Part shown: positions 5,040 to 50,915 of the stretch, piece by piece | Layout: each line of letters opens with the position of its first letter | How positions within the stretch are numbered: the stretch's first letter is position 1 | Notes under the pieces: generated by a model | Databases searched by the model: none | Seen by the model: only the letters and a program-made list of their open reading frames with translations | Told to the model about the DNA's origin: nothing | Source of the DNA: Pirellulales bacterium | Lineage (GTDB): Bacteria; Planctomycetota; Planctomycetia; Pirellulales; JALHPA01 | Direction of reading: 5' to 3' | Length of the DNA stretch: 50,915 nucleotides | NCBI GenBank assembly: GCA_033762255.1 | Contig: JANRLT010000012.1 | Location: 1 to 50,915 of the forward strand | Made by a program: the position numbers and the translations under genes

Positions 5040-5055
5040 GATTGAATAACCCCGG

Positions 5056-5135
5056 TAGGGGAATTCGCCAGAAAGTAGCGGAATTCGCCAGAATTCCGAA
5101 GGCGTGGTAGGGTAGCGGAATTCACCAGAATTCCG
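5056..5135. repeat. GTAG-headed REP hairpins, GGAATTC arm family
   Basis: Two full 24-base copies (5075-5098 and 5112-5135) consist of GTAG, then arm CGGAATTC, loop GCCA or ACCA, and arm GAATTCCG. The 8-base arms are perfect complements. Truncated relatives lie at about 5057 and 5179. They sit between two converging gene ends and code for nothing. Confidence 0.75.
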
Positions 5136-11696: not shown

Positions 11697-14222
11697 TTAG
11701 TGATTGAACAAAAACTCTTTGGTGTTAAGCACCACCCAGATCAAATCCTCGAAAGCGATCTTGTCGTTTTTGATTTTTTCCAAATGTGCTTTGGCAATGG
11801 AGAGTTCTTGCGAATTCGGTTTGCGGGCCAGGGCGGCTAAATACAGCTGATCCAGCTTTTGTTCAGGGGAAAGTGTTTTATCTTCAGCAAGTTTATTGGC
11901 CCGGCCGTTTGCATTGCTCAGTTTGGCCTGGATTTCCCCGGAATTTAGCAAGTGCAGGCTTTGTGCCAGATTGGCGTCGTTGGTCCGTTCGCACTCGCAG
12001 GCACTAGCGCCGTCGGGCTTGCCAAAGACCTGCAAAAAGTATGAATTCACCCCGGTATCCGGTAATTGCGTCGCGCGGATTCCCTCGGGCAAACCGCCAA
12101 ATTTCGTAGGAGAAGCCGTGACAGTGTCGATGGAATCCAGCAGCACCTCGGCATTCAGCCGCTTGGGATAGTACCGGGCAAAGCTTTGCTTGTCAGCGCC
12201 GTTCCATTCGTTAGGCTCGGAGCTGAGTTGGTAGGTATTCGACAGGCAAATCGTCCGAATCAGATCCTTGAGGTTGAAGCCGCTTTTAATAAAGTGCTGC
12301 GCGAGCGCCTCGAGCAATTCGGGATTGCTGGGAGGATTGGTCACCCGCATGTCATCCTCGGGATCGACCAAACCGCGGCTAAAAAAGTGCTTCCAATAGC
12401 GATTGACCAGCGCCGGGGCAAAGAACTTGTTGTCCGGCGCGGCCATCCAATCGACAAGGGCGTGGCGCGGGTCCTGTTCAACGGTCAGGTCCATCGGGGC
12501 CGCGTCCAGTCCCGCGGGCTTGACCGCCGCGCCGGTCTTGGTGTTGGTTGATTGCGCCAGTCCGCGCTGGTGAAATATCTTATCTTCCCCTTGAACCGCC
12601 CCGGGCTTGCGTCCCACCCGGCTAAAAAACGCGTTCAAACTAAAGTAGTCCTGTTGGCTCCACTTTTCAAAGGGATGATGGTGGCAATGGGCGCATTGAA
12701 TGCGCATGCCTAAGAACAGTTGCGCTGTGTCTTCTTGTTGTTGAATCGAGTCCTTGACCTCGCGGTACCATACCACCGGGGGATGATCGGTCGCATCGCC
12801 GCTGGCGGCGATGATCTCTCGCACGAACTGATCATAGGGCTTGTTCTCGTTCAGGCTTTGGCGAATCCAGGCATAAAACAGGTATGTCCCCCGTGTCTGC
12901 GATTCTTGCCGCTTCTTGTTGCGCAGGACCGCGCTCCATTTATTGGCAAAGAAATCCGCGTAGTCGCTGCTGGCCAACAGACGGTCAACCAGCTTCTCGC
13001 GCTTGGCCGGGTCGGCATCGGCGATAAAAGCCTCGGTTTCGGCAATGCTGGGTAAGCGGCCCGTGATATCGATCGAGACTCGGCGGATAAACGTGTTATC
13101 GTCGCAAATCTTGGACGGCGGAATGCCTAGTTGCTTCCACTGCGCGGCAACCAAATCGTCAATGAAATTCTTACTGGGGGGTAAATTCTCAACCGGTGCG
13201 CCCAGCGGAATCATCGCCCGAAACACCGCCACTTGTCCCTGAAAGCGGGCCATGATCGCCACCGCGCCGGTCAGATCGTTCGTTTTTACCAGCCCCAACG
13301 GTGTGCAACTGGCCATTTCGGGATCGTTGGCGTCAAACTGCGCCAGATTTGTCACGTCCTTGGTCGTGCCATCGGTGTAGTGGGCCGTTACGGTGATTTG
13401 CTGTTCGGCCTGGGGGCCAAGAGTACGGCTGGCGGGCGTGACTTGAATTTTTGCCACGGTGGGATCCTCAGGCTTGCCATATGGCATTCCCTGGTCGATC
13501 CAACGCTTGAGTACGCGATATCCGGGGCTACCCTGTTCGATGCGCGCTCCCCCGCCATGCGGCGCTGCGCCAATCGCCTTTAGTAGTAACAGGCTCCGCT
13601 CGGGCGCGGCGGGAAAGATTCGCCGCCCACGCGCTTCCTTAACCAAATGCTCAAAATCTTCGCGTGGTTCAAAGCCCAGCAAAGAGAGTTTAAAGCCGTT
13701 TTGGCCGCTGGCCTTGCCATGACAGCCGCCGCTGTTGCAAGAATACTTGGTAAAAACTGGAACAACCTCGTTGGCAAAGTTGACCGGCACATCCTGAACC
13801 AAGTTTTTAACTTCTACCCGCGTGGTGGCTGTTTTGCCACTGGCGTGCTGGATTTTGATCGTGGCTTGACCTTCTTTGGCCGGCATGACCAACCCCGTGG
13901 AGTCGATTGTGACCACATCGGCCGGCTCGGCTGAATAAGCCACCTGACGACTAAAGTCGCGAAGTTGGCCGGAGCTATAATGCCCCGTCACCACTAGTTG
14001 CTGCCGCGAATCCCGCCCCGCCAGGGTAAAAGAGTCCGCGCTAGGCAGGCCAAATTCCACCGTGATTTGTTGTAATTCGCCGGGATCCCCTAGTCCCGGC
14101 GCGGTCCGCACAGGGGGGACTGGATCTTCCGCCCTCAGTAGGTCGGTATCATGAACGGCAAATGACATTGCTATTGCCAAAAATAGCAAACCGCTTGGCA
14201 ACATCCTGAATCCTGAAAGCAT
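11697..14222 (-). CDS. DUF1549/DUF1553 (PSD1-type) planctomycete cytochrome-associated protein
   Basis: An 841-residue exported protein. GGAGG seven bases before the ATG at 14222 sets the start; a GTG five codons earlier lies on the Shine-Dalgarno itself. After the signal peptide come a BIG2-like domain (QLVVTGHYSSGQLRDFSRQVAYS), a cytochrome-like segment with C162-x4-C167-H (CNSGGCHG, the form usual in this family), a second BIG2-like domain (ITVTAHYTDGTTKDVTN), the DUF1549 region (FIDDLVAAQWKQLGIPPS...FIRRVSIDITGRLPS) with CAHCHHHPFEKW, and the DUF1553 region (RHALVDWMAAPDNKFFAPALVNRYWKHFF). It is the first gene of the three-gene set running to 5379. Function is inferred only from the family: redox or degradative work outside the cytoplasm. 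Confidence 0.92.
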   Translation of the reverse strand: MLSGFRMLPSGLLFLAIAMSFAVHDTDLLRAEDPVPPVRTAPGLGDPGELQQITVEFGLPSADSFTLAGRDSRQQLVVTGHYSSGQLRDFSRQVAYSAEPADVVTIDSTGLVMPAKEGQATIKIQHASGKTATTRVEVKNLVQDVPVNFANEVVPVFTKYSCNSGGCHGKASGQNGFKLSLLGFEPREDFEHLVKEARGRRIFPAAPERSLLLLKAIGAAPHGGGARIEQGSPGYRVLKRWIDQGMPYGKPEDPTVAKIQVTPASRTLGPQAEQQITVTAHYTDGTTKDVTNLAQFDANDPEMASCTPLGLVKTNDLTGAVAIMARFQGQVAVFRAMIPLGAPVENLPPSKNFIDDLVAAQWKQLGIPPSKICDDNTFIRRVSIDITGRLPSIAETEAFIADADPAKREKLVDRLLASSDYADFFANKWSAVLRNKKRQESQTRGTYLFYAWIRQSLNENKPYDQFVREIIAASGDATDHPPVVWYREVKDSIQQQEDTAQLFLGMRIQCAHCHHHPFEKWSQQDYFSLNAFFSRVGRKPGAVQGEDKIFHQRGLAQSTNTKTGAAVKPAGLDAAPMDLTVEQDPRHALVDWMAAPDNKFFAPALVNRYWKHFFSRGLVDPEDDMRVTNPPSNPELLEALAQHFIKSGFNLKDLIRTICLSNTYQLSSEPNEWNGADKQSFARYYPKRLNAEVLLDSIDTVTASPTKFGGLPEGIRATQLPDTGVNSYFLQVFGKPDGASACECERTNDANLAQSLHLLNSGEIQAKLSNANGRANKLAEDKTLSPEQKLDQLYLAALARKPNSQELSIAKAHLEKIKNDKIAFEDLIWVVLNTKEFLFNH

Positions 14223-18282: not shown

Positions 18283-18676
18283 GCTTAGTATTTGACACCT
18301 AAAAAAGTTTAGTCACGCTCTTCACAGGGATATTAAGCATACCGCCAACTGTAAAAGCGATGTCTTCATTCTACAGACGGAATAATCCCTGTCAAAAATC
18401 GCTTAAGGTTGGTTGCGGTGTTCAAATTGCGTTGTGGAGGGATTAGCTGCGTAGGGCGGAACGTGTTCCGCCATCCCGCGAAAGGTGGGGATGCATTTGG
18501 GTAAAAGAACCGTGTTTGCCATGTCGGAACATGATCCGACCTACGGAACCTTGGCCATACCGCAATACTACCGCGTACCAAGAGAGTTTCACCCGCTGCC
18601 CGGATGATGATTGCTTGTCGGATTCAGCTTTATCGTAATCCTGTTTCTTGCTAGTATATGCATGGAGTACGATCCT
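18283..18676. other. Intergenic region with REP pair
   Basis: A 394-base gap between two divergent genes. It carries the intact A+B REP composite (18451-18544). Elsewhere only ordinary upstream sequence is seen, with GGAG nine bases before the ATG at 18677. Confidence 0.5.
18451..18544. repeat. REPIN-like composite: REP-A and REP-B head to head
   Basis: REP-A (18451-18472): GTAG then a GGCGGAAC/GTTCCGCC hairpin with a GT loop. Fifty bases later, REP-B (18523-18544): a near-palindrome GTCGGAACATGATCCGAC followed by CTAC. The GTAG feet face outward, as in paired REPs (REPINs). Confidence 0.75.
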
Positions 18677-19264
18677 ATGATTGAATTCAAGATTACCGGT
18701 GAAGAGCTTTGGGCGCGAATGGAGCGAGCCGTGGAAAGGGTCAATGAACGCCTGCGAAAAACGGTCACGATTCTGGAGCAGGCCCAAGTGCCGTATGCCG
18801 TCATTGGCGGCCATGCGGTGCGCGCGTGGGTGGCTCAAGTTGACGAGGCGGCCTTGCGCACCACGCAGGATGTGGATATCCTCGTTCGCCCGGCCGACTT
18901 GGCGGCCATGACTCACGCCATGACAGCGGCTGGGTTTTATCACCGCAACACGGCCGGCCTGGATATGTTTGTCGAACATCCGGACGCGTCAGCGCGTGAC
19001 GCGGTGCACGTGTTTTTGGTCGGAAATATCGAGAAAGGGGGGGAGCCGAACCCCGATATCGAACCGGCGGCACGGGCCAACAACTTTCAGACAGTTGCCC
19101 TCGAGACCTTGGTGCGGATGAAGCTGAATGCTTTTCGTCGCAAAGACCAAGTTCACTTACAAGATATGATTTCGCTGGGGCTGATTGATTCAACCTGGCT
19201 GGATAGATATCCCGAAAACCTGCGCCAGCGATTGCAGGAACTGCTTAACGATCCGGATGGATAG
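18677..19264 (+). CDS. Nucleotidyltransferase-fold protein
   Basis: A 195-residue protein starting MIEFKITGEELWARM at the ATG with GGAG nine bases upstream; the frame extends to 18611 but those residues are hydrophobic and repeat-derived. The core PYAVIGGHAVRAWV followed by TTQDVDILVRPADL matches the nucleotidyltransferase fold of the AbiEii/MNT-like or DUF6036-like groups: a GG turn plus a DxD metal pair. A conserved later block (FQTVALETLVRMKLNAFRRKDQVHLQDMISLGLID) also fits these proteins, which often serve as antitoxins or abortive-infection components. No HEPN or other partner gene adjoins it, so a toxin-antitoxin role is only a possibility. Confidence 0.72.
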   Translation: MIEFKITGEELWARMERAVERVNERLRKTVTILEQAQVPYAVIGGHAVRAWVAQVDEAALRTTQDVDILVRPADLAAMTHAMTAAGFYHRNTAGLDMFVEHPDASARDAVHVFLVGNIEKGGEPNPDIEPAARANNFQTVALETLVRMKLNAFRRKDQVHLQDMISLGLIDSTWLDRYPENLRQRLQELLNDPDG

Positions 19265-19268
19265 CGGC

Positions 19269-19366
19269 GTAGGTCTGAACGTGTTTTGCCACCACGTGGT
19301 GGTAGTTTGTTATGGGTTTATGGACTTTGGCTTTTGGTTAGATTGTAGAGCGGAACGTGTTCCGCC
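19269..19366. repeat. REP-A copies, one decayed and one intact
   Basis: A decayed GTAGGTCTGAACGTGTTTTGCC (19269-19290) is followed by the perfect palindrome CCACCACGTGGTGG and TAG. An intact REP-A, GTAG plus AGCGGAAC/GTTCCGCC, is at 19345-19366. No REP-B partner is evident. Confidence 0.6.
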
Positions 19367-19431
19367 AATCCCCTTGGGAAATGTTGTGCCGCGCAGCGGA
19401 ATGATTAATCAGCCGCGCAGCGGCGGAGCCT

Positions 19432-19502: not shown

Positions 19503-19667
19503 TCAGGGTTTCCCGCGCCAGGGGGATGGGAATCCTTGGCGGCCATGCGATGAAAAAACGAGATGTTTTCTAGCGCCAACGATTCCCGACCCCGGGGGTG
19601 GTGAGCAAATTCGCATCAAGTCTCACAATAAAGAACAAACGCGGCTCCTGGTACGGTGACGGCCAAA

Positions 19668-20101
19668 TTGCTCCACGGCACCGGGACGGTGCCTGCTACG
19701 TTGCTCCACGGCAGCGGGGACGGTGCCTGCCACATTGCTCCACGGCACCGGGACGGTGCCTGCTACGTTGCTCCACAGCATCGGGACGGTGCCTGCTACA
19801 TTGCTCCACGGCATCGGGACGGTGCCTGCTACATAGCTCCACGGCATCGGGACGGTGCTTGCTACATTGCTCCACAGCATCGGGACGGTGCCTGCTACAT
19901 TGCTCCACGGCATCGGGACGGTGCCTGCTACGTTGCTCCACGGCACCGGGGACGGTGCCTGCTACATTGCTCCACGGCACCGGGGACGGTGCCTGCTACG
20001 TTGCTCCACGGCACCGGGGACGGTGCCTGCTACGTTGCTCCACGGCACCGGGACGGTGCCTGCTACATTGCTCCACGGCACCGGGGACGGTGCCTGCTAC
20101 A
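19668..20101. repeat. Tandem array of 13 GGCACC REP units (about 33 bp each)
   Basis: The unit is TTGCTCCAC followed by the hairpin GGCACC-GGGAC-GGTGCC and TGCTACA (GTAG foot on the minus strand). I count 13 units; variants carry GGCATC, AGCATC or an extra G in the loop. Units 4-8 share the GCATC variant and 9-11 and 13 the extra G, which indicates stepwise local duplication. It is not coding. Confidence 0.85.
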
Positions 20102-20151: not shown

Positions 20152-20203
20152 AAAAAAATCACGGCCACAAAGCATTGCGCTGTGTGGCCGTGTTTGCGTT
20201 TTT
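20152..20203. terminator. Bidirectional rho-independent terminator
   Basis: A 10-base perfect stem CACGGCCACA (20160-20169) / TGTGGCCGTG (20183-20192) with TTTGCGTTTTT after it on the plus strand and TTTTTTTA after it on the minus strand. On the minus strand it would end the Gly-rich gene about 120 bases after its stop codon. On the plus strand it would stop any transcript from the repeat array. Confidence 0.8.
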
Positions 20204-20217
20204 AAACTCGACAAGTA

Positions 20218-20308
20218 GTAGAGCGGAACGTGTTCCGCCAGCCATAATAGCTCCTCATTTTTGTCGGTTATGAATCGCTAGGTGGTGTCGGATCATGATC
20301 CGACCTAC
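20218..20308. repeat. REPIN-like composite A+B, second intact copy
   Basis: REP-A (20218-20239): GTAG plus AGCGGAAC/GTTCCGCC hairpin. After 47 bases comes REP-B (20287-20308): the perfect 18-base palindrome GTCGGATCATGATCCGAC followed by CTAC. Same order, orientation and spacing as at 18451-18544, with an unrelated middle. Confidence 0.78.
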
Positions 20309-20312
20309 TTCC

Positions 20313-20612
20313 TTAATATGGAAACGGACTAGGACACGGCTGTGGATACGGTTGAGGGTAAGGCCGAGGATACGGCATGGGATAGGGCCGGGGGAACGGA
20401 TACGGACGGGGAAAACACCCGTCACTGCCGCAGTGCCCGCCGCCATAACCACCGCCAAATCCACCCCCCCAACCTCCGCCCTGTCCATAACCTCCGCCGT
20501 AGCCGCCGCCGTATCCTCCACCCCAGCCGCTCGCCTCGGCCGAAGAACTCACGGTCAGGGCACCCATCGTTAACACCGCACACATGGTCAAAATTCGAGC
20601 AAAACGTTTCAT
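20313..20612 (-). CDS. Small exported Gly-rich / Pro-Tyr-rich protein
   Basis: A 99-residue protein starting MKRFARILTMCAVLTMGALTV at 20612 with AGGAG eight bases upstream; a longer frame to 20894 has no such site. A signal peptide ends near SSAEAS. The mature part is first GGGYGGGYG-type repeats, then a C-x3-C (HCGSDGCF) and a tail of PRPYP / PQPYP repeats. Low complexity prevents a family call. It may be a surface or matrix protein. A REP composite begins five bases after its stop codon, and the terminator lies just beyond. Confidence 0.7.
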   Translation of the reverse strand: MKRFARILTMCAVLTMGALTVSSSAEASGWGGGYGGGYGGGYGQGGGWGGGFGGGYGGGHCGSDGCFPRPYPFPRPYPMPYPRPYPQPYPQPCPSPFPY

Positions 20613-20887
20613 GGCTTGAACTCCTATGGCCAGAAATTTTTTTGTATGAGAGTCGGTTACTGTAACCACCTCTTCAATTAGACTTAGCGTGAATCGCGGA
20701 AATTCGTTACAACCAGCACGAACTTTATTTCGCGAATTGCGTACCAGCCACGTGGTGGGGTAACTTAGATTAATCGGGCAAAGGCGGAATTTAGTCATTC
20801 TCCCGTCCCGATCCAGTCGACAATTCCACCACCAATGGCCAAAAACACCTCTTTTTTGCCTTACTATCTCCCTTGGATAATACGCCC

Positions 20888-22129
20888 ATGTCATTTCCCG
20901 CGGCCGAGACTGAATTCCCTACCCAACGGCAACCTTCCCCGGGGGGCCCTCCCCCGTCGGCGACCTCCCCCCACGCCCTGGCCGCAAATCAAGAGCATCG
21001 TCCTATCCTGGGCTGGTTGCTTTTAGCGCTCGTGGGCCTGGTGGTGTTGCTGCTAATCCCATATTTAATCGAGCAAATTCGCTATCGGGGTCAATTGGGC
21101 GAGAACGAGGCCCTGACAGAATTGATGCGGCAACCTGAATTTGCCAAGTTGGGCAAGCATTACACGCTGGTTTCCAAACGCCTCAAGCCGAGCGTGGTCC
21201 ATATTGATACCAAGCGAATGGATATTCGCGGCAATGACGAGCTAACCGCATTGTTTGGTCCGCGAATGGAGCAAGCGCAGGGCCAGGGGAGTGGCGTCAT
21301 TGTGGACCCGGCGGGCTATATTGTGACAAATTACCACGTGGTGGCCGGAGCGGGAAGCGTGACGGTCCACCTGAGCGATTCGCTGCGGAGCTACTCCGCG
21401 CGGGTCGTGGGCACCGATGACAAGAACGACCTGGCGGTGCTCAAGATCGACGCCAGCGACCTGATCGCCGCCCCCTGGGGGGATAGCGACGCGCTGGAGG
21501 TGGGGGAAATCGTCTTTGCCATGGGAAATCCCTTTGGCCTGGATGGCACATTGACCCAGGGAATAGTCAGCGCCAAGGACCGTCGCGGAGTGAATGAACG
21601 CTCGCGCTATCAAGAGTTTTTGCAGACCGATGCCGCGGTCAATCCCGGTAATAGCGGCGGTCCGCTGGTCAACATTCAGGGGGAAATCGTCGGTATTAAC
21701 ACGGCGATCGTAGGGCCGACGTACCAGGGGATCAGCTTTGCGATTCCCAGTAACGTGGCCAAGCAGGTTTATGAGCAAATTCGCGCCACGGGAAAGGTGT
21801 CAAACGGCTACCTGGGCGTGGGGCTAGCTCCACTTAATCTAGAAATTGCCCGGCAGTTGAAACAGCCGCTGATAGTCAAGGACGAATCCGACCTGCGGGG
21901 AGCGCTGATCACGGCGGTCGCGCCTGAGTCCCCCGCGGCGGCGGCGGGGCTATTGCAATATGACATCATCCGCAAATGGAATCAGCGCGAGATCACCGAA
22001 CCGGGAATGCTAAGCTACTGGGTCGCACGCACGCCGGTGGGGACCAAGGTGCCGGTGGAAATCCTGCGAGATGGCCAGCCACTGACCCTGGATGTGACCG
22101 TGGGAGAACGCCCGGCGGCGCTGCAGTAG
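20888..22129 (+). CDS. Membrane-anchored HtrA/Deg-like serine protease with one PDZ domain
   Basis: A 413-residue trypsin-fold protease. The ATG at 20888 is preferred over a TTG five codons earlier. A cytoplasmic Pro-rich tail of about 40 residues precedes one membrane helix (about 41-60), so the protease faces the periplasm. The catalytic triad is intact: H150 (VTNYHVV), D181 (NDLAVLKI) and S256 (NPGNSGGPL). A PDZ domain spans about 300-405 (GYLGVGLAPLN...LITAVAPESPAAAAGLLQYDIIRKWN). It probably degrades or refolds damaged exported proteins. It is divergent from the Gly-rich gene. A second HtrA-like gene with a different layout lies at 28335-29690. Confidence 0.92.
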   Translation: MSFPAAETEFPTQRQPSPGGPPPSATSPHALAANQEHRPILGWLLLALVGLVVLLLIPYLIEQIRYRGQLGENEALTELMRQPEFAKLGKHYTLVSKRLKPSVVHIDTKRMDIRGNDELTALFGPRMEQAQGQGSGVIVDPAGYIVTNYHVVAGAGSVTVHLSDSLRSYSARVVGTDDKNDLAVLKIDASDLIAAPWGDSDALEVGEIVFAMGNPFGLDGTLTQGIVSAKDRRGVNERSRYQEFLQTDAAVNPGNSGGPLVNIQGEIVGINTAIVGPTYQGISFAIPSNVAKQVYEQIRATGKVSNGYLGVGLAPLNLEIARQLKQPLIVKDESDLRGALITAVAPESPAAAAGLLQYDIIRKWNQREITEPGMLSYWVARTPVGTKVPVEILRDGQPLTLDVTVGERPAALQ

Positions 22130-22136
22130 AGGCATA

Positions 22137-22191
22137 GTAGTAGGCACCGTCCCGGTGCCGTGAGCATTGTAGTAGGCACCGTCCCGGTGCC
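22137..22191. repeat. Pair of GTAG-headed GGCACC REPs
   Basis: Two direct copies (22137-22159, 22169-22191) of GTAGTA plus the hairpin GGCACC-GTCCC-GGTGCC, nine bases apart. They are the same hairpin as the two large arrays but in the opposite orientation, and lie just after the protease stop codon. Confidence 0.8.
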
Positions 22192-22297
22192 GTGCGGGAG
22201 ACGGGAGACGAGAGACAGGAGGGTGGGGGGGCGAGCCTCGGCGAACCCCCGTGCGTGAAGTGAGAAATAGAATGAAGTAGGCGTAATAATTGCAATC

Positions 22298-49766: not shown

Positions 49767-49780
49767 CTAAGGTCACTTAC

Positions 49781-50216
49781 CAAGAAAGTTGACAGCACCG
49801 GGACGGTGCCTACTACGTACGGTCTCTTGCCAAGAAGTTGACGGCACCGGGACGGTGCCTGCTACGTAGCGTCTGTTGCCAAGAAGTTGACGGCACCGGG
49901 ACGGTGCCTGCTACGTACGGTCTCTTGCCAAGAAAGTTGACGGCACCGGGACGGTGCCTGCTACGTACCGCCTCTTGCCAAGAAAGTTGACGGCACCGGG
50001 ACGGTGCCTGCTACGTACCGCCTCTTGCCAAGAAAGTTTACGGCACCGGGACGGTGCCTGCTACGTACGGTCTCTTGCCAAGAAGTTGACGGCACCGGGA
50101 CGGTGCCTGCTTCGTAGCGTCTCTTGCCAAGAAAGTTTACGGCACCGGGACGGTGCCTGCTTCGTAGCGTCTCTTGCCAAGAAGTTTACGGCACCGGGAC
50201 GGTGCCTACTACGTAC
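49781..50216. repeat. Tandem array of 9 GGCACC REP units (about 50 bp each)
   Basis: The unit is CAAGAAAGTTGAC, the hairpin GGCACC-GGGAC-GGTGCC, TGCTACGTA and CGGTCTCTTGC. I count nine units with 49- to 50-base spacing; variants differ in GAAAG/GAAG, TTGAC/TTTAC and CTACGTAC/TTCGTAGC. The hairpin and TGCTAC are the same as in the array at 19668-20101, but the spacers are unrelated. The array ends four bases from the stop codon of the small Pro/Val-rich protein. Confidence 0.85.
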
Positions 50217-50220
50217 CCCC

Positions 50221-50646
50221 CTACCAGCCCCAGCGGGTCGTACTGCGGACCGGCCAGCCACGGCGATAGACGGTGCGGCTGTTGACCACGCCGGGCGAGA
50301 CAAAGACCGGGGACGGTTGTACGACAACGGGGGCGGGGGCAAAGAACGTTGTCTGGCGAACCGGCGGGGCATAAAACGTGGTCACGGGGGCCGCCTGGAC
50401 CACCGGAAATGCCGGTTGACTTACAAATGCAGGCCCAGCGACGACGGGCGCGGGGCTATAAAAAGTCGTCACCCGCCGGGGCGCGCTCCACACCACCGGA
50501 GCCGGTTGCACAAACACGGGCGCTGGCTGAACAAAGACTGGCTGCGCCGGAAAAAAGACCTGCGCCGAGGCTGACGGGGTCAAGCTCGGCAGACTGACGC
50601 TGGAACAGGTGGCCAGGACCAAAAAGGTGACAATTTTGCGAATCAT
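50221..50646 (-). CDS. Small exported Pro/Val-rich protein
   Basis: A 141-residue protein starting MIRKIVTFLVLATCSSVSL at 50646 with GAGG upstream; the frame stays open to 50787 but the added residues are not protein-like. A signal peptide ends near SASAQ. The mature part is built from PAPVFVQPAPV-type repeats and several copies of VTTFYAP/TTFFAP, ending in a basic aromatic tail (YRRGWPVRSTTRWGW). Low complexity; no family recognised. Its 3' end joins the REP array directly, so its mRNA tail would carry up to nine hairpins. Confidence 0.65.
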   Translation of the reverse strand: MIRKIVTFLVLATCSSVSLPSLTPSASAQVFFPAQPVFVQPAPVFVQPAPVVWSAPRRVTTFYSPAPVVAGPAFVSQPAFPVVQAAPVTTFYAPPVRQTTFFAPAPVVVQPSPVFVSPGVVNSRTVYRRGWPVRSTTRWGW

Positions 50647-50915
50647 CGTAACGCCTCGTGGAAAGGGATTGGTCAAACTACTATCATTATACCCAAGCCA
50701 AGTGGGCTTGTGACAGTTGCCCTCCGGAAAGATTTTACCCGCCCAACAGGGGTTTTGGGGGCCTACCCTTGCGGATTTTACGCCCAAGAATTAGCATAAA
50801 GCAGGATTTGTGGCCGCTTGCAGCCTGACTGCTAAAGAGCCATCGCCGGGCCTGCCTGGATATTTGGCGGATATGTGGATCGCCAAATAAGAAATTTCAC
50901 GGGGAAATTGGCGAT
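50647..50915. other. Window end, upstream of the Pro/Val-rich gene
   Basis: 269 bases with the presumed promoter of the leftward gene. An 8-base hairpin ATTTGGCG/CGCCAAAT (50862-50888) lies near the end. No gene is seen. Confidence 0.3.

Follow-up and report, generated by a model that had tools for sequence, protein, structure and literature searches.

At positions 19667 to 20100 of the window analysed here, thirteen copies of a short REP hairpin are stacked head-to-tail between two convergent reading frames. The locus raises the question of what this stack is, and how a REP came to be repeated in this way. The window comprises 50,915 nucleotides and is an entire contig (C12) of a Pirellulales assembly of 5.47 Mb in 72 contigs, which is 96.6% complete.

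Structure and surroundings of the 13-unit array

The array was called by Tandem Repeats Finder at 19653-20101 with a period of 33, 13.5 copies and 92% matches. Splitting of the minus strand at GTAG divided the assembly sequence into 13 units of 33-34 nt each, with the first GTAG at 20100 and the last spacer finishing at 19667. On this strand the unit consists of GTAG, CA, GGCACCG, TCC(C), CGGTGCC and the spacer GTGGAGCAAY. It can thus be written as GTAGCAGGCACCG-TCC(C)-CGGTGCC followed by 10 nt of spacer, with GTAG close to the base of a 7-bp hairpin. An earlier note on this DNA had described a 13-fold stack of about 33-bp units with a CTAC foot. The stack was recovered with coordinates differing by one base, and CTAC is the complement of GTAG, so the foot is a minus-strand GTAG. 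The identification as a REP was also correct, since GTAG foot, hairpin, many scattered copies and stem covariation are all present. With up to two mismatches, GTAGCAGGCACCG matched the window 25 times (including position 13586, which is no REP), compared to 1.16 expected matches and a maximum of 5 in 100 shuffles. Chance is therefore ruled out for the array.

Variants are shared between units as the note had listed them. Counted on the plus strand, units 4-8 carry GGCATC or AGCATC and units 9-11 and 13 an extra G. Unit 2, which had been overlooked, has an extra G as well, plus a GTGG foot. These variants had been taken as evidence of stepwise duplication, and this interpretation stood only in part. 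The five GCATC units stand next to one another, as in 9 of 1287 possible placements (p=0.007, post hoc), and for 11 of 12 units the nearest relatives are confined to the array. However, neighbouring units were overall no more alike than units in shuffled order (p=0.29).

The proposal that the array is a structural RNA was not supported. The array folds little better than its shuffles (100 per strand), with z -1.77 on the plus strand (5/100 shuffles as good) and z -0.69 on the minus strand (23/100), and a search of the whole window against Rfam at gathering score gave 0 matches. A CRISPR array was rejected, because the spacers are not unique but repeat one 10-nt sequence with little variation. 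An intrinsic terminator made of the array units was rejected likewise; there is no T-run behind the units on either strand, and the terminator scan lists none inside the array. The array may act as a protein-binding platform.

Upstream on the plus strand lies a nucleotidyltransferase-like gene (18611-19264, plus strand), identified by a Pfam match below the curated cut-off. The convergent reading frame on the other side (20313-20894, minus strand) is a Gly-rich ORF with a signal-peptide-like start and no Pfam match, which was missed by our home-made gene caller. Between array and convergent ORF, where a strong terminator had been claimed at 20152, a terminator-like hairpin that is T-rich on both sides indeed folds at 20160-20192 (z -3.08 and -2.35), but it is not listed by a simple terminator scan. 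This hairpin intervenes between the array and the end of the nearest minus-strand ORF, 213 bp away, and the array has no adjoining called same-strand stop codon.

Two further arrays with the same REP core were found in the window, both with spacers unlike those of the 13-unit array. A two-unit array at 22132-22194 (plus strand) has its first GTAG at 22137, 7 nt past the stop of a protease gene (20873-22129, plus strand; Pfam Trypsin_2 and PDZ_2). This gene had matches in 30/30 genomes searched, own genome included, with a best identity of 55% outside it. A nine-unit array at 49772-50217 (minus strand) has units of 49-50 nt, and its first GTAG, at 50212, lies 8 nt past the stop of the ORF at 50221-50787. 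Other types of GTAG hairpin were also seen. Beside the 13-unit array are GTAGGTCGGATCATGATCCGAC (20287-20308, minus strand), found also near the Y1 gene of locus L009, and GTAGAGCGGAACGTGTTCCGC (20218-20238, plus strand), with an identical 23-bp copy at 19345-19367 (plus strand). A tandem pair of GTAGCGGAATTCGCCAGAA is located at 5055-5093 (plus strand).

The REP family in the genome and in the order

The exact 23-nt core GTAGNAGGCACCGTCCCGGTGCC was found 62 times in the own genome and in 0/391 other genomes of the phylum. Allowing two mismatches, the own genome yielded 113 copies and the reversed control 0. At the same threshold, 3/295 other genomes of the order contained the core with 1 to 3 copies each. 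The reversed control gave one match apiece in five other genomes, and the single REP match in G592 may therefore be chance. A first count in the own genome using a 13-mer with one mismatch resulted in 151 copies, but the reversed-pattern control gave 50, and therefore longer patterns were relied on for copy counts. The exact core had no match in a collection of named genomes' contigs, which may omit the own genome. One match of a looser pattern, in a Duganella stretch, was taken as chance.

Defined by the hairpin, 115 REP copies were counted in the stretches examined, in clusters of 1 to 18. This definition is stricter than a grouping by GTAG split, which gave 27 groups, among them some that misread the opposite strand. 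The copies are mostly extragenic, with 1/40 groups inside a called gene. Among REP neighbours within 250 bp, 79 were in the same orientation and 3 inverted, and 13 clusters contained three or more copies. By this ratio the copies are not organised as REPINs, in which an inverted REP pair is the unit; rather, one REP together with adjoining DNA is repeated in tandem, as in REP VNTR loci of the SMAG type. The longest head-to-tail array of this REP has 17 units (contig C5). Spacers are near-constant inside an array and mostly differ from array to array. In an array of 50-bp units, 8/8 units have their nearest relatives only within their own array, and likeness of adjacent units reached p below 0.05 (uncorrected) in 2/5 arrays. 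In four short arrays (L081, L082, L094 and window position 22137) the spacer, judged by eye, combines the beginning of the 3' flank with the final bases of the 5' flank, which is expected from duplication of a REP with a short stretch of flank. Two arrays about 4 kb apart on contig C5 have one identical unit in common, and neither flank matches their spacers.

Several loci show other arrangements. One longer dispersed repeat bears the REP as one to three tandem units (L072, L082, L083, L084:7169 and L094). At L114:12371-12684, a 91-bp tandem unit contains two opposed REPs with the stems GGCAGCG and GGCACGG, a BIME-like exception. Long-unit arrays (107-185 bp) of the same REP lie near the ends of contigs C11, C16 and C31 (L075, L077, L086), and arrays of this kind therefore probably break the assembly.

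The fully paired stems of dispersed copies were GGCACCG, GGCACGG, GGCATCG, GGCAGCG, GGCACAG and one TTCACAG. The covariation score of the stem was 0.268 compared to 0.061 in shuffled rows, and 0/500 shuffles scored as high. The 14 rows (12 distinct) were chosen for variety from listings including one of 33 copies, and the score therefore shows that compensated variants exist, not their frequency. The compensated stem GGCACGG was observed in same-orientation groups at C33:22107-22460, C10:9797-10027 and C30:85771-86064. A general excess of GTAG hairpins was not shown in a 400 kb sample of the own genome, with places set independently of REP matches (2.5 per 100 kb vs at most 2.0 for other tags). 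The same sampling in four relatives gave 0-3 GTAG hairpins vs up to 8 for other tags.

The REP type is shared between genomes of the order. G275, which belongs to another family, has 32 copies within three mismatches of the GGCACAG form, with one match of the reversed control. Its close pairs, 39-78 bp apart, are nine inverted vs one in the same orientation (Fisher p 2.4e-9 against the 79:3 of the own genome). G396 has 13 copies, and the listed ones include a single inverted close pair. Three genomes contain more than three copies, and among them head-to-tail stacking was observed in the own genome only.

Stop codons, unit boundaries and transposase genes

For placement relative to genes 41 REP groups were counted, of which 5 had no called upstream gene. 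A same-strand stop codon was located -6 to 30 nt away in 23 of the remaining 36 groups, in 16 of them within 15 nt. Among 20,000 random intergenic positions, these distances were seen for 2.6% and 1.4%, respectively (p about 6e-28). The stop-adjacent set includes L090:5575, which is no REP (22/35 without it), and counts L114 on both strands; the home-made caller also overlooked ORFs that seem genuine. In three groups, the in-frame stop is the TAG of GTAG itself. The 13-unit array departs from the placement seen in most groups. REPs near stop codons follow a placement rule published for other REPs (PMC3733652).

Directly before GTAG an A/T triplet is usually found. The base at -3 is A in 76% of the 34 groups read, five of which belong to one longer repeat and hence are not independent. 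Spacers typically end in A/A/T-like triplets. In nine copies read in G275 and G396, AAA precedes GTAG in 6/9 and GT follows the hairpin in 8/9.

The own genome has 10 Y1_Tnp matches, and within 1.5 kb of these genes the exact REP was found at 0/10 loci. A REP stem variant lies about 240 bp upstream at the Y1 locus L005, but the gene there has inverted repeats of its own on both sides. A sister REP, GTAGGAGGCGACTCYGTCGCC, is built in the same way as the array's REP. It has 94 copies at up to two mismatches (none in the control), of which 62 are single, and its close pairs are 16:1 in favour of the same orientation. Two copies in opposite orientations to those across the gene stand on each side of the Y1 gene C17:56080-56415 (C17:55825-56653, L004), and this gene with its flanking sister REP is a canonical REPtron. 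A RAYT origin of the array's REP is thus plausible. In G275 (99% complete) no Y1_Tnp match was found. G396 has 12 Y1 matches, and a search for a cognate RAYT in the hairpin listing shows the REP at 0/12 of these loci. The idea that tandem stacking was caused by loss of the RAYT is weakened, because G275 has inverted pairs yet no Y1 match.

Origin of the tandem arrays

The arrays were compared with known systems in published reports. The closest known kind is the SMAG arrays of Stenotrophomonas maltophilia (PMC2613905), in which a monomeric GTAG REP and flanking DNA are likewise repeated in tandem at several loci. One SMAG locus has 50-bp units of 24 bp REP and 26 bp flank. SMAG unit numbers vary from strain to strain, reaching 17 in a table of that report, whereas the array here is known from one assembly. 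SMAGs also occur as dimers, whereas inverted neighbours are rare in the own genome. In arrays of Pseudomonas fluorescens SBW25 (PMC3116915), REPs likewise share one orientation and are regularly spaced, with 12 GI and GIII sequences in the two largest arrays. Unlike the array here, the large SBW25 arrays have GI and GIII REPs in alternation, spaced at 112 and 72 bp, and most SBW25 REPs are inverted doublets (REPINs), unlike those of the own genome. The GTAG families described by Di Nocera et al. 2013 (PMC3733652) have in common with our REP the GTAG end, a short stem and loop, and proximity to ORF 3' ends. Use of the TAG of GTAG as a stop codon and several families per genome are reported there too, as in the own genome, and such families are known in planctomycetes including R. 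baltica. Both tandem GTAG-REP arrays of variable unit number and the placement of REPs next to stop codons have thus been described before. The earlier statement that REPs are normally single or paired holds for many genomes. All three of these reports, however, describe tandem REP arrays, and the 13-unit array is therefore not exceptional in kind. It is a large example of known GTAG-type REP stacking and mostly ordinary.

We observed a dispersed hairpin, compensated stems, head-to-tail stacks and array-specific spacers. We consider it quite probable that this is a tandem GTAG-type REP cluster that arose by past RAYT-type dispersal and then by local expansion through slippage or unequal recombination. 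Single REPs would once have been dispersed in trans by a RAYT-type (TnpA-REP, HUH Y1) single-strand transposase. Later, a REP with short flanking DNA would have been duplicated and expanded locally via replication slippage or unequal recombination. Array-specific spacers, the internal kinship of units, stem covariation, flank-derived spacers and the sister REPtron argue for this model, and strain-variable unit number in tandem GTAG-REP arrays is a precedent for expansion (PMC2613905). The absence of the exact REP from all ten Y1 loci, and the retention of the REP type in G275 without a Y1 match, speak against it. Simple stepwise slippage is opposed by the lack of greater likeness between adjacent units and by the unit common to the two C5 arrays. 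With regard to the recombination hot spot proposed in the note, local expansion at the 13-unit locus is likely.

The shared C5 unit would also suit a model in which arrays grew as monomers were inserted site-specifically, time after time. In this model, a TnpA-REP-type enzyme would cut between an A/T triplet and GTAG, and a second time where the spacer ends in a similar triplet, and new units would be placed before existing ones. The A/T triplets before GTAG, the triplet-like spacer ends and the AAA in copies from G275 and G396 are consistent with such cuts. However, units mostly resemble those of their own array and not those of other arrays, five of the 34 boundary groups are non-independent copies, known TnpA-REP enzymes are described as cutting at CT or CA (PMC8266576), and no cognate enzyme was identified among the Y1 loci of the own genome. 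We therefore regard repeated insertion as improbable. Similarly doubtful is the reading that the REP type changed form, with REPINs in G275 and, here, transposase-built ladders of one orientation whose units start at A/T-GTAG and mostly stand behind stops.

It is unlikely, too, that the unit number is an assembly artefact from a collapsed or misassembled repeat. The assembly is fragmented and same-REP arrays lie near the ends of C11, C16 and C31, but the longest exact self-repeat inside the 13-unit array is 65 bp, the unit variants fix the order, and arrays with other spacers recur at many loci. Selection might instead retain the array, as a binding platform or as a 3'-UTR hairpin ladder that alters mRNA stability or translation termination. 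The frequent placement of REP groups behind stop codons and the covarying stems fit this, and ribosome stalling in E. coli is reported for REPs that lie no more than 15 nt from a stop (PMC12306157). The 13-unit array itself, however, is separated from the nearest minus-strand ORF by 213 bp and the terminator-like hairpin, its folding is close to that of shuffles, and the exact family is restricted to the own genome. Retention by selection thus appears very unlikely, and the array in its convergent intergenic region probably has no dedicated role.

In summary, our data favour dispersal followed by local expansion. On its own, the 13-unit array is mainly a possible typing marker. The family adds a lineage whose REP stacks are almost exclusively head-to-tail, with an unusually one-sided orientation. 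The contrast of 79:3 with 1:9 (same to inverted) between the own genome and G275 offers a comparison for what decides between life as a REPIN and life as a tandem array, and for whether REPs behind stop codons influence translation in this group.
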